From the IMG/VR virus record IMGVR_UViG_3300042995_000016, positions 1 to 56,456 of that record: a stretch of DNA of 56,456 bases; one strand, given 5' to 3'. Under the pieces are notes generated by a model that was not told the DNA's origin, ran no database searches, and was given only the letters and a program-made list of their open reading frames with translations. The position numbers and the translations under genes were made by a program. The stretch's first letter is position 1. Each line of letters opens with the position of its first letter. This document shows positions 10,685 to 55,950 of the stretch, piece by piece. The DNA comes from a virus.

Positions 10685-11277
10685 TCAGCCCCGCGCCGCC
10701 TTGGACCGCAGGAAGTTGGCGAGCCGCTTCGTCGCCTGACCGGGATCGGGCTTCGTCTCGGGCTCGTCGCTGCCGGATCCGAACGGGTTGGTCTTCCGCA
10801 GGAAGTCGATCCGCCCCTTGAGGGCCAGCTCGATCTGCGGGACGGGGGTGCTCAGCGCGACCTCGGGCGTCCAACCCAGCCACCCGGTCGCGTGCTGGAA
10901 GAGTTCGTCGAAGTACTCGTCCAGCGTCAGCCGGCGCCGTTTCCCGCGTCGCCCTCGGGCTCGGCCTTGTCCTCGACGGGCTTGCCGCCGTTGGCGAGGA
11001 TGATCAGGAACTCGACCAGCGGCAGCGCCATGTCGCGCACGCCCGCCGCGAAGACCTTCTCGGCGAGCCCCTTGGCCTCGGCGTCCGTGCGCAGGCCGAG
11101 GCCGAACCGCACGATGGCCACGTAGGCGTCGAGGTCCTGGGCGAGCACGCGCTGCTGGGCGGCCTGGAGGCCGCCGAACTGCCGGCTGATGCCGGTCGCG
11201 GCGTTGAGGGTGGGCGTTAGGTGGCGCGGCTCGCCGTCCAGGGTGATGGCGACCTGGCCCGCGGTGATCTTGCTCAT
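10685..11277 (-). CDS. Tail assembly chaperone, long form made by -1 frameshift
   Basis: The predicted frameshift product is 197 residues: 113 from the first frame, then 84 from the -1 frame ending at TGA 10687-10685. The extension begins RRRLTLDEYFDELF and includes GWLGWTPEVALSTPVPQIEL, a pattern seen in siphovirus tail chaperone extensions. The extension frame has no ATG or GTG at its beginning. The slip site G-GGA-AAC lies 10 bases before the first-frame stop. This parallels lambda gpG/gpGT, where the T part recruits tube subunits to the tape measure. The alternative is separate initiation at CTG. Confidence 0.8.
10927..11277 (-). CDS. Tail assembly chaperone, short form
   Basis: A 116-residue protein, similar in plan to GTA gp10 / lambda gpG. 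A beta-hairpin start (GQVAITLDGEPRHLTPTLNA) is followed by a helical body (QRVLAQDLDAYVAIVRFGLG) and an acidic Gly-rich tail (EDKAEPEGDAGNGAG). It would coat the tape measure before tube assembly. It sits between the tail tube gene and the tape measure, and its end overlaps the -1 extension frame. A strong hairpin separates it from the tube gene. Confidence 0.85.
   Translation of the reverse strand: MSKITAGQVAITLDGEPRHLTPTLNAATGISRQFGGLQAAQQRVLAQDLDAYVAIVRFGLGLRTDAEAKGLAEKVFAAGVRDMALPLVEFLIILANGGKPVEDKAEPEGDAGNGAG
10939..10945 (-). promoter_or_regulatory. -1 ribosomal frameshift slippery heptamer G GGA AAC
   Basis: Read in the chaperone frame the codons are GCG GGA AAC, so the heptamer has the X XXY YYZ phase. 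After slipping, both tRNAs re-pair as GGG and AAA. The stop TGA is at 10929-10927. The next bases (CGGCGCCGG) are self-complementary and GC-rich and could act as a stimulatory structure. Confidence 0.85.
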
Positions 11278-11376: not shown

Positions 11377-11868
11377 TCAGGAGCCGGCGACCGCGGCGCC
11401 TTCGATGACCTCGGTGTTGATCGCGAGCATGACCGTGCGGCGCAGCGCGTCGGGTGCGCCCTTGCCATGGCGGTTGGAGCCCACCAGGGCGCGGAAGTAG
11501 AACCTCGTCGGCTTGCTGCCGGTCCCGCCGGGATCGTCGGGCATGATGATCCTGAACGGGTAGTCGCTGGCCTTGTCGGCCCGCGCCTCCAGGAGCGCGA
11601 CCTGCCCGTCGTCGGCCGGGTCGTTCAGCATCCGGACCATCATGTTGCCGGCGTCGTCGAAGGTCTTGACCTTCTTCACGCGGCCGGTGCCGACCATGGG
11701 GATGTTCGAGATCTGCGTCTCGTCGCCGAAGTCGTCGAAGTCCTCGAGCTGGCCCAGCTCGGTCCAGCCGGCCTCGAGCTGGCTGTCGTACTCTGTGAGG
11801 GTGTCGTAGGCCCACGACTTGTCGCCGATGTAGATCTTCGCGCCGACGACAGGGATACCGCCGCTCAT
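11377..11868 (-). CDS. Major tail tube protein
   Basis: A 163-residue protein in the canonical position between tail terminator and tail chaperone. The N-terminus (VVGAKIYIGDKSWAY) and the following beta-strands (LGQLEDFDDFGDETQ, GRVKKVKTFDDAG) match the beta-sandwich tube proteins of HK97/GTA-type tails. The C-terminus carries LVGSNRHGKGAPDALRR and TVMLAINTEVIEGA. It would polymerise as hexamer rings around the tape measure. Followed by a strong hairpin, consistent with a high-abundance structural transcript. Confidence 0.82.
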   Translation of the reverse strand: MSGGIPVVGAKIYIGDKSWAYDTLTEYDSQLEAGWTELGQLEDFDDFGDETQISNIPMVGTGRVKKVKTFDDAGNMMVRMLNDPADDGQVALLEARADKASDYPFRIIMPDDPGGTGSKPTRFYFRALVGSNRHGKGAPDALRRTVMLAINTEVIEGAAVAGS

Positions 11869-11893: not shown

Positions 11894-12322
11894 TCATGCG
11901 GCGTAGTGGACGGTGAACGGGACGCTCACCGAGACCCGGAACCAGTTCCCGGAGTCGTCGCCCGATTCGCCGCCTCCGATGCTCGCGGCCTCGGTCTGGA
12001 TGCCCGAGAAGGCCGCCATGCGGAGCGCGGCGCCGACTTCCCCGGCGAGTTGATAGGCGGCTTGGTCGCCCGTGCCCACGGGGACGAAGCAGTGCGCGAA
12101 GATCGTGCCCCGCTCCGTCACCACCCGCTTGCCGGGCGAGTTGAAGGCGGTCATGTCCGACGGCCCGCCGAGCACCTCCAGGTAGATCCAGGGCAGCGGG
12201 CTGGGCGGGCTGCCGCCGTCGTCGGGCGGGTCGAAGCTCTCGTTCGGATAGGCCAGGGGGACCGAGCCGAACGGATTTCCCAGCCGCGAGCGGATCGCGG
12301 CGACGGCGTCGGCGAACGTCAT
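11894..12322 (-). CDS. Tail terminator protein
   Basis: A 142-residue protein one gene upstream of the tail tube. The start (MTFADAVAAIRSRL) is the amphipathic helix typical of tail terminator/DUF4128-like proteins. It is followed by PWIYLEVLGG and a beta-rich C-terminus ending VSVPFTVHYAA. The protein would cap the tail and bind the connector. Family assignment rests on position, size and this helix-plus-strand pattern. Confidence 0.7.
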   Translation of the reverse strand: MTFADAVAAIRSRLGNPFGSVPLAYPNESFDPPDDGGSPPSPLPWIYLEVLGGPSDMTAFNSPGKRVVTERGTIFAHCFVPVGTGDQAAYQLAGEVGAALRMAAFSGIQTEAASIGGGESGDDSGNWFRVSVSVPFTVHYAA

Positions 12323-27691: not shown

Positions 27692-28963
27692 TCAGATCCG
27701 CATCGGCATGACGACCTGGCGCAGCGCGACGCCGCCCTCGGCCGAGGGGGCCGACGTCACCAGCATCGGGTTGGCGGGATCCACCAAGCCGAACTCCACG
27801 GCGTCGCCGCCGGCGCGCTCGAGCGCCTCGAGCAGGTAGGTCGCCGAGAAGCCGAGGCGGAGGACGCCGCCGACGTCCGGCGCGCCCGCCTCCCGGCGCA
27901 TGGCCAGCGGCAGCGCCGCCATGGCCGTGCCGCTCGTCTGCGACCGCGCCTCGACGGTGAGCCGCGTGCCGTCGAAGGTCAGCCGCACCGGCTGCTGGCG
28001 ACGGTCGTAGGGCTCGCCGCTGGCCGCGAGGATGGCGGAGACGAGGCGCAGCTTGCGCCGGAGCGCCGCGCGCTCGACCGTGGCGCGGACCACCGGGCTG
28101 GGCATGAGCCGCTCGTAGTCCGGGAAGGTGCCGTCGATCAGCTTCGATTCGAGCGCCCAGCCCGGGCCGTGGAAGCGCATGGCGCGCTCGGTGCAGGCGA
28201 CCGTGACCGGAGCCGCGGGGTCGGAGAGGACGAGCAGGCGCAGCAGCCGGGCGACGGCGCCGCGCGGCAGGATCAGCGGCACGGCCGTGGCGAGCGCGCC
28301 GAAGTGGAAGACGTGCGGCAGCCGGAGCCGGGCCTCGGCCAGCCGGTGCCCGTCGGTGGCGGCCGCGACCAGCTCCGAGACGCCGGCCGACGCGGCGATG
28401 CGCAAAGCGACGCCGTTGAGGTAGTAGCGGGTCTCCTCGTCGGAGATGCAGTGCTCGACCGCCTGCAGCAGCGCGGCGAGGTCGCCGGCGCCGAGCGACC
28501 AGGTCGGGGCGCGGCCGAAGTCGTATGTCGCGCCCTCGTCCGGGAAGTCCTCGACCGACAGGCCCTTGATCGTGGTGCTCAGCTCGGCGTGCGAGACGTC
28601 GAGGTCCGCGTCCGCCGCGTGGTCCGCGAGCTCGACGGGGCCCGCGCCGAGCTCGCGCGCGACCGCGGTCAGCGCCGCGGCCGGGACGCAGGCCGAGACG
28701 TCGCGACCCGCGTAGGGGATCTCCGCCGCCATGCGCATGTCCATGTCGGTCGTGGCGAGGCGGAGCGCGCCGCCGCCGCCAGAGAGCCGGACGCAGGCGA
28801 GGATCGGGAGGACGGAGCCGCGGCGCGGCACGACGCCGGAGACGAGCCGCAGCGCGCGCAGCAGGTCGCGGGCGTCGAGGGGCCCGTGCGCGTCGGCCGG
28901 CGCCGGGTCGATCGGCGTGGCGTTGGTGACGGCCGTGGCAGGGCGGAAGAGGGTCATGTCCAT
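27692..28963 (-). CDS. dnaN: DNA polymerase III beta subunit homologue (sliding clamp)
   Basis: A 423-residue protein with all three clamp domains. Domain 1 begins near residue 28 (LDARDLLRALRLVSGVVPRR, then SVLPILACVRL) and carries LRLATTDMDMRMAAEI. Domain 2 has VEHCISDEETRYYLNGVALR and AAATDGHRLAEARL. Domain 3 has LIDGTFPDYERLMP and ends RQVVMPMRI, the usual C-terminal 'MPMR'. Compared with bacterial clamps it has about 25 extra N-terminal residues. It would tether a polymerase to phage DNA. Phage-encoded beta clamps are uncommon. Confidence 0.92.
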   Translation of the reverse strand: MDMTLFRPATAVTNATPIDPAPADAHGPLDARDLLRALRLVSGVVPRRGSVLPILACVRLSGGGGALRLATTDMDMRMAAEIPYAGRDVSACVPAAALTAVARELGAGPVELADHAADADLDVSHAELSTTIKGLSVEDFPDEGATYDFGRAPTWSLGAGDLAALLQAVEHCISDEETRYYLNGVALRIAASAGVSELVAAATDGHRLAEARLRLPHVFHFGALATAVPLILPRGAVARLLRLLVLSDPAAPVTVACTERAMRFHGPGWALESKLIDGTFPDYERLMPSPVVRATVERAALRRKLRLVSAILAASGEPYDRRQQPVRLTFDGTRLTVEARSQTSGTAMAALPLAMRREAGAPDVGGVLRLGFSATYLLEALERAGGDAVEFGLVDPANPMLVTSAPSAEGGVALRQVVMPMRI

Positions 28964-28992
28964 GGGGCGGGTCCTCGAGGAGGATGGGGTGG

Positions 28993-31527
28993 TCACTCGG
29001 CCGCGACGGTCGCGGCCGGGGCGTAGAGGGTGTGGTGGGCGTTGAGCTTCGCGAGCAGCGTGACCGGGCGCTTGGGGACCGAGTTGCCGACCAGCTTCAT
29101 GCTCTCGGTCTTGGTAAGCGGCCGGCGGACGCCGTCGATCTCGATCTCGTCGGGCATCCGGAGCTCGTGCGCTGCGGCGGCCTCGCGCGGGGTCAGCATC
29201 CTCATTCCGATGTCGATGACTACCCAGGGCCCGACGGTCACGACATCGCCGCCGTCCCAGGCGCCGTGCTCGCGCAAGAACTCCGCGACCTGGCGGGCCC
29301 GGGTGATCTGGGCCGTCGAGAGAGAGGGCGCGAGGTCGGCGGCCGACACCGCGAACCTGTCCCGGGTGGAGGCCGTGTTCAGCGGCGCCTCGCAGCCCTG
29401 GTGCTGACCGCCCGTGCCGTAGTACTCGCAGAGGAAGGCGGCGGCCGGTGCCGTGTGGAAGCCCCCGGCGGTCTGAGCCGGCACCGGGTTCGCGGGATCG
29501 AGCGCGGTGGCGGTGCCGCGGAGCTCGGCGAGGTAGGCCGCGCCGACCGCCTGCGGGCCGACGGTGGTGACCGTCGTGCTCGTGGGGTCGGTCATGTCGT
29601 GGCCGACGACGCCCGTGTTGTTCTGGACCATCCAGGCGCCCATGACGGCGTGCCCGCCGCTGGTCGTGATCGTGTTGACGGGGTCCGAGGCGTCGTAGGC
29701 GCAGGAGGCGTTGGACTTGTGCATGTCGGTGCGGACCATTGCGGCTCCGACCACCGCGTGCTTCGCCCCGCCCGCCATCTGCGTCCCGATGGCGTTCTCG
29801 ATGTCGATAGCGCGGGGCTTCTGGCCTTTCCGCTCCCCGTAGCCGGTCTGGACCAGCGACGCGGCGACCACCGAGAACTCGGGCGATCCCGTGGCGGTCT
29901 GGAGCGGGTCCGCCGCGTCCTGACCCCGGTGGGCGGTGTAGCCCGGGCCCGTATGCCCGGGGCGGACGATGGTGGGAGCGAGCGTCGCGCCGACCACGCC
30001 TAGCGGCGCGGCACCGCCCGGGCGCTTGTGGAAGCTGTTCGCGGTCACGGTCGGGAGCGGCGCCGTCGCGGGCACCCCGGCGCTGTCGCCGCGGAACACC
30101 GCGACGTGCGGCGCCAGGGAGGCGCCGACCACGCCGAAGCGCGGTGCCCCGGCCATGACGGTGTCGAGCGGTGCGCCCGGCTGCTGCCCCACGCTGTTCT
30201 CCTGGAACTTCGTGAGGTGCGCCGCCACCACGCAGCGATCTTCCTTGGTCGTGCTGGTGTTGAGCGGATCGGCCGCGCCCATCGGGGGGCTCTGCGCGGC
30301 CCGGCCGCCGGCGCCGACCACGGTCGCTGCCATCGCGGCGAACTCGCCGCCCTTCACGCCGGCGGTCAGCGTCGGGACCGGCCCCTCGCCGTCGTGGACG
30401 CGCTCGCGCCCCTTCTTCTTGCTGCGGTGGGTCGTCGGCACGACCGCGGCGCCGACCAGTGCCATCTCGCCGCGATGCGCGCCGGTCACCGTCGAGATGG
30501 GCTCGGTCGGGTCGATCTCGGGCCGCGCCCCATGGTGCGTCAGGTGGATTAGGAACGGCCGCGCGGCCTCGATCACGAACCGCTTCATCCCGACCGCGAC
30601 GCGCCGCTGCGTCGCCGCCGCGAGGGGCTTCTTCCGGTCGAAGATCGAGGGCAGCGGCAGGGACCAGTCGATGATCTCCGCCGCCGCGCGGAAGGGCTTC
30701 AGCTTGCCCGCCTTCACCGCCTCCGAATCCCGCGGCCCATGCGTGGTCGGCGGCCATTCGATATCGCCGGGGCCGAAGACGCCGACGCCGAAGAGGCGCT
30801 TGCGCGAGGTCGGGACGCCGTGCTCCGCGCAGTTCAGGTCGCGATCTTCATACCGCGCACCCAACTTCTCCAGGTGCCTGACCCAGGCCCGGTAGGTGCG
30901 GCCGACGCGCTTCGGGTCGCGGACGAGCTGCTGCTCCTGCCGCGGCACGCGCTCGCCCTTGGCCGCGACGGTGCCGTCCAGCTTGATCACGCGGCCGGTC
31001 GCCTTGCAGCGCTTGGCGATGAGCGGTCCCCATCCGCGGATCTCCCTGACGTTCTCAAGGTAGACCACGCGCGGGCCGAGGCCGTGCTTGCGGAGCTTGC
31101 CGATCCACCGGCAGACTTGCCAGGGCATGGAGCGCACCCGGGGCGATCGAGGGGCGCCTCCCTTGGCCACCGAGTGGTCCAGGCAGTCCGGGCTGGCCCA
31201 GAGGATGTTGACCTGCCGCCGCCCGGTCGCCTCCAGCGGGCACACCTCGTAGATGTCGGCGTGCAGATGGCGTGTGAACGGGTTCAGGGCCTTGTGCGTG
31301 GCGATGGCGACGGCGTCGTGGTTGACCGCGACGTGGACCGGGAAGCCCGCGTCCTCCAGCCCCTGGCACGCCCCGCCCATGCCGGCGAACAACACGACGT
31401 TGATGCCGGCCTCGAGCGGCCACTCGTCGCGGCGCCGATCGTCCCGCCGGGCGTTGCGGCGCCGCGCGCGGGTCCTGGCCGCCGGGCGGGTTTCGATGAG
31501 CCCGGTGAACAATGAGCCGTCAGGCAT
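28993..31527 (-). CDS. DNA cytosine-C5 methyltransferase with internal repeat insertion
   Basis: An 844-residue enzyme, about twice the usual length. Motif I is NVVLFAGMGGACQG (43-56). The catalytic Cys is C115 in ASPDCLDHS, the SPDC variant seen in proteobacterial prophage enzymes. ENV is at 158-160 and motif VIII is GVPTSRKRLF (237-246). The C-terminal motifs include LTPREAAAAHELRMP and GNSVPKRP. Between VIII and IX, residues about 338-735 are ten or eleven degenerate repeats of about 37 residues (P-l-x-T-x-T ... V-V-g-A). It would protect phage DNA from host restriction. Confidence 0.9.
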   Translation of the reverse strand: MPDGSLFTGLIETRPAARTRARRRNARRDDRRRDEWPLEAGINVVLFAGMGGACQGLEDAGFPVHVAVNHDAVAIATHKALNPFTRHLHADIYEVCPLEATGRRQVNILWASPDCLDHSVAKGGAPRSPRVRSMPWQVCRWIGKLRKHGLGPRVVYLENVREIRGWGPLIAKRCKATGRVIKLDGTVAAKGERVPRQEQQLVRDPKRVGRTYRAWVRHLEKLGARYEDRDLNCAEHGVPTSRKRLFGVGVFGPGDIEWPPTTHGPRDSEAVKAGKLKPFRAAAEIIDWSLPLPSIFDRKKPLAAATQRRVAVGMKRFVIEAARPFLIHLTHHGARPEIDPTEPISTVTGAHRGEMALVGAAVVPTTHRSKKKGRERVHDGEGPVPTLTAGVKGGEFAAMAATVVGAGGRAAQSPPMGAADPLNTSTTKEDRCVVAAHLTKFQENSVGQQPGAPLDTVMAGAPRFGVVGASLAPHVAVFRGDSAGVPATAPLPTVTANSFHKRPGGAAPLGVVGATLAPTIVRPGHTGPGYTAHRGQDAADPLQTATGSPEFSVVAASLVQTGYGERKGQKPRAIDIENAIGTQMAGGAKHAVVGAAMVRTDMHKSNASCAYDASDPVNTITTSGGHAVMGAWMVQNNTGVVGHDMTDPTSTTVTTVGPQAVGAAYLAELRGTATALDPANPVPAQTAGGFHTAPAAAFLCEYYGTGGQHQGCEAPLNTASTRDRFAVSAADLAPSLSTAQITRARQVAEFLREHGAWDGGDVVTVGPWVVIDIGMRMLTPREAAAAHELRMPDEIEIDGVRRPLTKTESMKLVGNSVPKRPVTLLAKLNAHHTLYAPAATVAAE

Positions 31528-55251: not shown

Positions 55252-55950
55252 ATGGATGGCACGCCGGGGCTCCCCGAGACGCGCTCGAAGGACGCGCTGA
55301 GGACTCACTTCAAGACGCTCCTCCTCATCGCGCAGGCGTCTCGGCTGGAGATGGGGATGGTCGAGGACCGGTACCCGCCGACCGAGGACGAGACGGCCGA
55401 GAGCGAGCGGCGGCGGCGCTGGGTGGACGCGGCGGTCGACCGGGCTCGGGTCAGCCAGCGCCTGCTCGCCCGCATGCCGGCCACCAACCTCGACGAGGCG
55501 GCCGTCCAGCTCGCCGTCGCGGCGCCCCTGGCGCTCAGGCTCCACGAGAGCGCGAAGGCCGCCGGGCAGCCGGTCGACGTCGACGAGGTCGAGGATCTCG
55601 TCTCGCTGCTCTGGTCGGCCGCGGCGGCGGTCGCGAGCCGCGCCGGCATCGACCTCGCGGCCTACGGCATCGCGCCGCCGGCGGAGCTCGCCCCCTGGGC
55701 CGCCACCGCCGACGGCGCCCCGGTCTTCGACACCGCGTTCCAGGCGGCCGGCGGGGACGGCTTCGACGACGCGGTGAGCGCGCTGAGCGCCGAGCCGCTG
55801 CCGGAGGAGGCGACGCCGGAGATGCTGCTGGCCGGGCACCGGGCCGCGCCCGGCGAGGTCTCGAACCTGCTGCGCGCCGAGATGCTGCAGCGGATCTGGC
55901 AGGCCATGGTTCGGTGCGCGCGGCCGCAGGCGACGGGCGACCTGCCGTGA
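55252..55950 (+). CDS. Host hypothetical protein
   Basis: A 232-residue protein with GGGAGG before ATG 55252. Helical and Ala-rich (ALRTHFKTLLLIAQASRLEM, AVQLAVAAPLALRLHESAKA, LVSLLWSAAAAVASRAGIDL). Outside the prophage, first gene after attR. Coupled to the next gene by GTGA. Family unknown. Confidence 0.65.
   Translation: MDGTPGLPETRSKDALRTHFKTLLLIAQASRLEMGMVEDRYPPTEDETAESERRRRWVDAAVDRARVSQRLLARMPATNLDEAAVQLAVAAPLALRLHESAKAAGQPVDVDEVEDLVSLLWSAAAAVASRAGIDLAAYGIAPPAELAPWAATADGAPVFDTAFQAAGGDGFDDAVSALSAEPLPEEATPEMLLAGHRAAPGEVSNLLRAEMLQRIWQAMVRCARPQATGDLP

Follow-up and report, generated by a model that had tools for sequence, protein, structure and literature searches.

In phage lambda, the proteins G and GT are produced by a -1 frameshift at an X XXY YYZ site near the end of the gene that precedes the tape measure gene (PMC5009743). 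The tape measure protein is covered by the short product; the long one, which is rarer, uses its extension to bind the major tail protein (PMC5009743). The heptamer G_GGA_AAC has been reported or predicted in other phage and archaeal-virus tail chaperones (PMC5009743, PMC3483164), among them gp18/gp19 of the Burkholderia phage KL1, for which GGGAAAC was predicted just before the TGA of the tail chaperone gene (PMC3483164).

We analysed a viral record of 56,456 bases (hereafter the window), for which an earlier note had proposed a programmed -1 frameshift in the tail chaperone gene. The minus strand carries, in this order, the terminase, portal, head, tail terminator, major tail and tape measure genes. 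The chaperone gene is flanked by those for the major tail protein and the tape measure protein, which is the position of G/GT in lambda (Table 1). Elsewhere in the window, a 1021-aa open frame (27692-30757, minus strand) matches phrog_947, a DNA polymerase processivity factor family, over its last ~395 residues, and its first part has no assignment and may be non-coding. A tRNA-Ala (CGC) called by ARAGORN at 55572-55672 (minus strand) is unusually long with 101 bases and may be spurious or carry an insertion.

Table 1 The putative frameshift locus and the adjoining tail genes of the window.
Feature	Position	Strand	Evidence or remark
Tail terminator	11894..12322	-	PF13554 1.9e-7; phrog_179
Major tail (tube) protein	11377..11868	-	phrog_158 3.6e-13
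Tail assembly chaperone, short form (G-like), 116 aa	10927..11277	-	phrog_6454 3.6e-24
Slippery heptamer G GGA AAC	10939..10945	-	In slip phase; GGGAAAN in 82/84 distinct junctions
Zero-frame stop TGA	10927..10929	-	
Candidate weak hairpin GCTGGACGAG...CTCTTCCAGC	10894..10925	-	Starts 13 nt after the heptamer; not significant against shuffles
-1 frame extension (T-like domain), 84 aa + stop	10685..10939	-	phrog_7493 2e-20
Predicted frameshift fusion product (GT-like), 197 aa	10685..11277	-	One-ORF counterpart in two relatives (L003, L007)
Tape measure protein, 1216 aa	7000..10650	-	PF06791 2.6e-5 (below cut-off); phrog_1538; position, length

The heptamer G GGA AAC stands in phase within the chaperone frame, shortly before its stop, as the earlier note had claimed; the distance from the heptamer to the TGA is 9 nt. 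On the minus strand, the -1 frame stays open from 11371 to 10685 and contains no ATG, GTG or TTG over this entire length; only CTG and ATC are available. A slip at GGGAAAC would yield a product of 197 residues, 84 of which follow the site, so the earlier description of an 84-residue extension that ends at 10685 and lacks a start of its own is borne out. At 73% G+C, an open -1 frame by itself means little as evidence of coding, and we consider the extension to be coding because of its homology to phrog_7493 (2e-20). In nine head and tail genes of the minus strand (3947 codons), an XXXYYYZ heptamer occurs in phase eight times, and only the one at 10945-10939 is located less than 40 codons from a stop. 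GGGAAAS is found three times in the window against 6.9 expected, and only once on the minus strand, which carries the chaperone gene. The codon GGA is rare in the tail genes of the window, accounting for 4 of 252 glycine codons.

Both halves of the locus belong to phage protein families. The short form also hits PF11836 (Phage_TAC_11) at 2.1e-4 with 21.7 bits, which is under the Pfam gathering cut-off of 27.8 bits, and matches GTA gp10 (GTA, gene transfer agent) in a profile comparison with an E-value of 1.3e-9. The profile search of the 84-residue extension, which the earlier note had proposed as a check, returned phrog_7493; the match to GTA gp10.1/PF09550 is remote. There was no direct Pfam match of the window extension to PF09550 (Phage_TAC_6); two of ten aligned members of the extension family did match it (best 4.7e-5), and the family as a whole aligned to PF09550/GTA gp10.1 in a profile-profile comparison with an E-value of 3e-7 over 35 columns. 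In a set of predicted viral structures, the best matches of the short-form model (pLDDT 87) include several proteins named as tail assembly chaperones (best E-value 9.6e-4, TM about 0.5-0.6). The model predicted for the extension is confident and all helical (pLDDT 85). Neither half found a match among solved structures, and comparisons by sequence and by fold brought up no solved tail chaperone. We assign phrog_6454 to the short form and phrog_7493 to the -1 extension of the tail assembly chaperone, which gives a function to two families that are both listed with function unknown.

To characterize the arrangement in relatives, we searched GenBank by tblastn with each half and obtained the same 29 phages of Pseudomonas, Rhizobium and Synechococcus, in which the halves are adjacent. 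Scans of viral contigs added 84 loci, while a scan that used only the chaperone as query gave no hits. The extension lies in the -1 frame in 96 of the 98 loci that have both halves and forms one continuous ORF with the chaperone in the remaining two (L003:2974-3570, from Rhizobiales, and L007:2662-3261). These two one-ORF loci show no obvious route to a short form. We looked for the heptamer in the last 16 codons of the chaperone frame and found an in-phase GGGAAAG or GGGAAAC, 0 to 30 nt before the stop, in 82 of the 84 distinct -1 junctions, compared with 5.4 expected from synonymous codon shuffling. The conservation of the heptamer in relatives, named in the earlier note as a further check, is far above this null. 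When five prophage loci were added and the pairs were clustered at 70% identity, 23 of 26 clusters had GGGAAAN, two had CCCTTTN and one had no heptamer. Identity between the window pair and even its nearest relatives is only about 45%, so recent shared ancestry does not account for this conservation.

The same arrangement is present in alphaproteobacterial prophages, one of which (L103) has GGGAAAC 9 nt before the stop, exactly as in the window. In one phage or prophage relative each (L004:2989-2995 and L108), CCCTTTC or CCCTTTG replaces GGGAAAN at the same position, with CCCTTTG located 3 nt before the stop in L108. Two Synechococcus phages (L008 and L009, junction at 1821) have a -1 extension with no canonical heptamer and, ahead of the conserved GWLGW motif, no start codon either, which shows that the heptamer is not universal. 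The earlier note had expected gene callers to miss the extension. Existing annotation mostly does miss the arrangement: of the 12 annotated phage regions that we inspected, not one shows the fusion, and the extension is either missing or given a start that lies downstream or overlaps the stop.

The position in the tail module, the absence of a start for the extension, the homology of both halves, their -1 relation in nearly all relatives and the conserved heptamer, all shown here, argue for the interpretation given by the earlier note. We conclude, with a probability of about 0.93, that this gene encodes a tail assembly chaperone of the G/GT type and that its expression involves a programmed -1 ribosomal frameshift. 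The majority of ribosomes would stop at the TGA and release the 116-aa chaperone, and a minority would slip at the heptamer from GGA AAC to GGG AAA and produce the 197-aa protein with an additional helical domain. If lambda is a guide, the tape measure protein may be coated by the short form, and the major tail protein may be recruited by the extension that a few copies carry. That slippage takes place in the host of the window, and how often, is inferred, and the roles given to the short and the long product are likewise drawn from the comparison with lambda.

Alternatively, the extension could be a protein in its own right, made when ribosomes re-initiate close to the stop at a non-standard start, for example the CTG at 10930, which overlaps the zero-frame stop in the -1 frame. 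Overlapping starts do occur among homologues. In the Pseudomonas phages L014-L017 and L019, a GTG overlaps the TGA (GTGA) and the extension is annotated as a separate gene, and many GTA homologues have an ATGA or GTGA overlap start instead of the heptamer. However, the window and most relatives have no ATG, GTG or TTG at this place, and the heptamer is kept in slip phase against a strong synonymous null even in the GTG-bearing Pseudomonas phages, all of which retain an in-phase GGGAAAG 24 nt upstream. Moreover, the pair is a single polypeptide in two relatives. Re-initiation thus appears very unlikely for the window. The earlier note had named, as a refutation, relatives in which the extension has a start of its own and the slip site is lacking; this combination does not occur within the family of the window pair, where the loci with GTG keep GGGAAAG, and is seen only in many of the more distant GTA homologues.

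The fusion could also be made by transcriptional rather than ribosomal slippage. For a slipping polymerase, however, GGG followed by AAA is a pair of short runs, and the conserved phase suits tandem slippage of tRNAs, so this mechanism is more improbable still. Faulty sequencing or assembly, or decay of a fused gene, could be suspected behind the change of frame because the window is a viral-contig record and fused one-frame homologues exist (L003, L007). This is already contradicted by isolate phages, prophages and many contigs, which share the -1 layout together with an in-phase slippery heptamer, and it can practically be dismissed.

We also looked for elements that could stimulate the frameshift. 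The self-complementary CGGCGCCG, suggested as a stimulator in the earlier note, is indeed present; as a stimulator hairpin it was rejected, since it begins within the heptamer and is too short for a useful hairpin. Folding downstream of the site in the window did not differ significantly from shuffled sequences (z -1.0, -1.5 and -0.3), and this includes the weak hairpin listed in Table 1. Taken as a group, the relatives folded better than their shuffled versions, with a mean z of -1.56 over 70 sequences, dominated by one related clade, compared with +0.15 in a control stretch. No downstream structure common to the relatives was seen. Upstream, pairing of the Shine-Dalgarno type was only slightly in excess (mean -4.8 versus -3.7 kcal/mol).

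The profile comparisons (E-values of 1.3e-9 and 3e-7), together with the two extension-family members that match PF09550, support a remote homology of the window pair to GTA gp10/gp10.1. In alphaproteobacterial loci with PF09550, we found the second domain in the -1 frame in 54 cases, of which 19 have a heptamer without a start, 29 a start without a heptamer, three both (the start being TTG only) and three neither. Heptamer and start tend to exclude each other (Fisher p about 1e-8 for the 54 loci, p 0.016 for the class-wide sample alone, both uncorrected for relatedness). The commonest heptamer in the PF09550 loci is C CCT TTC. An in-phase C CCT TTC or C CCT TTT, 12-15 nt before the stop and combined with a g10.1 lacking a start, is present in the GTA or GTA-like loci L111, L112, L114, L115, L122, L125, L132, L148-L150 and L173-L177, whereas other GTA loci have an overlapping ATG or GTG start and no heptamer. 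In a further GTA cluster (L116, cluster L145), GGGAAAG abuts the g10 stop, again with a g10.1 lacking a start. The GTA megatron protein is encoded in the clusters of four heptamer loci (L138, L141, L142 and L145), and three others (L139, L140 and L143) adjoin Rcc01695-family or GTA baseplate hub proteins. As the phenylalanine codon TTT is common in heptamer-less GTA loci too, only the preceding CCC separates the two types.

Our literature search, which covered open-licence papers, found no report of a frameshift in GTA g10/g10.1. We consider it somewhat probable that the window pair and GTA gp10/gp10.1 form one superfamily in which the second domain is supplied in interchangeable ways: via a -1 slip at GGGAAAN, a -1 slip at CCCTTTN, an overlapping start or a fusion. 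If so, the tail assembly of domesticated GTAs would rely on programmed frameshifting as well, and some lineages would have exchanged frameshifting for re-initiation. Homologous genes that switch between frameshift, overlapping start and fusion would provide a natural experiment on the importance of the short-to-long chaperone ratio.

In comparison with known systems, the locus resembles lambda G/GT in a -1 slip predicted close to the end of the gene that precedes the tape measure gene, in the X XXY YYZ site and in a short and an extended product. The lambda slip site is GGGAAAG, whereas the window has GGGAAAC, and no sequence relation of the window pair to lambda G or T was found. The GGGAAAC before the TGA of the tail chaperone gene recurs in KL1 as a predicted site; the KL1 products are larger (142 and 264 aa), and KL1 is absent from the tblastn relatives of the window pair. 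The closest family matches of the two halves are phrog_6454 and phrog_7493. GTA gp10/gp10.1 (PF11836, PF09550) of alphaproteobacteria are similar in their remote homology, the same order and an extension mostly in the -1 frame. They differ in that the window short form stays below the Pfam cut-off for the former and the window extension has no direct match to the latter, and in their heptamers, which are mostly CCCTTTC, or absent where a start overlaps. The probable frameshift in the window belongs to the known G/GT kind, and the junction pattern of the GTAs is the more novel of the two.
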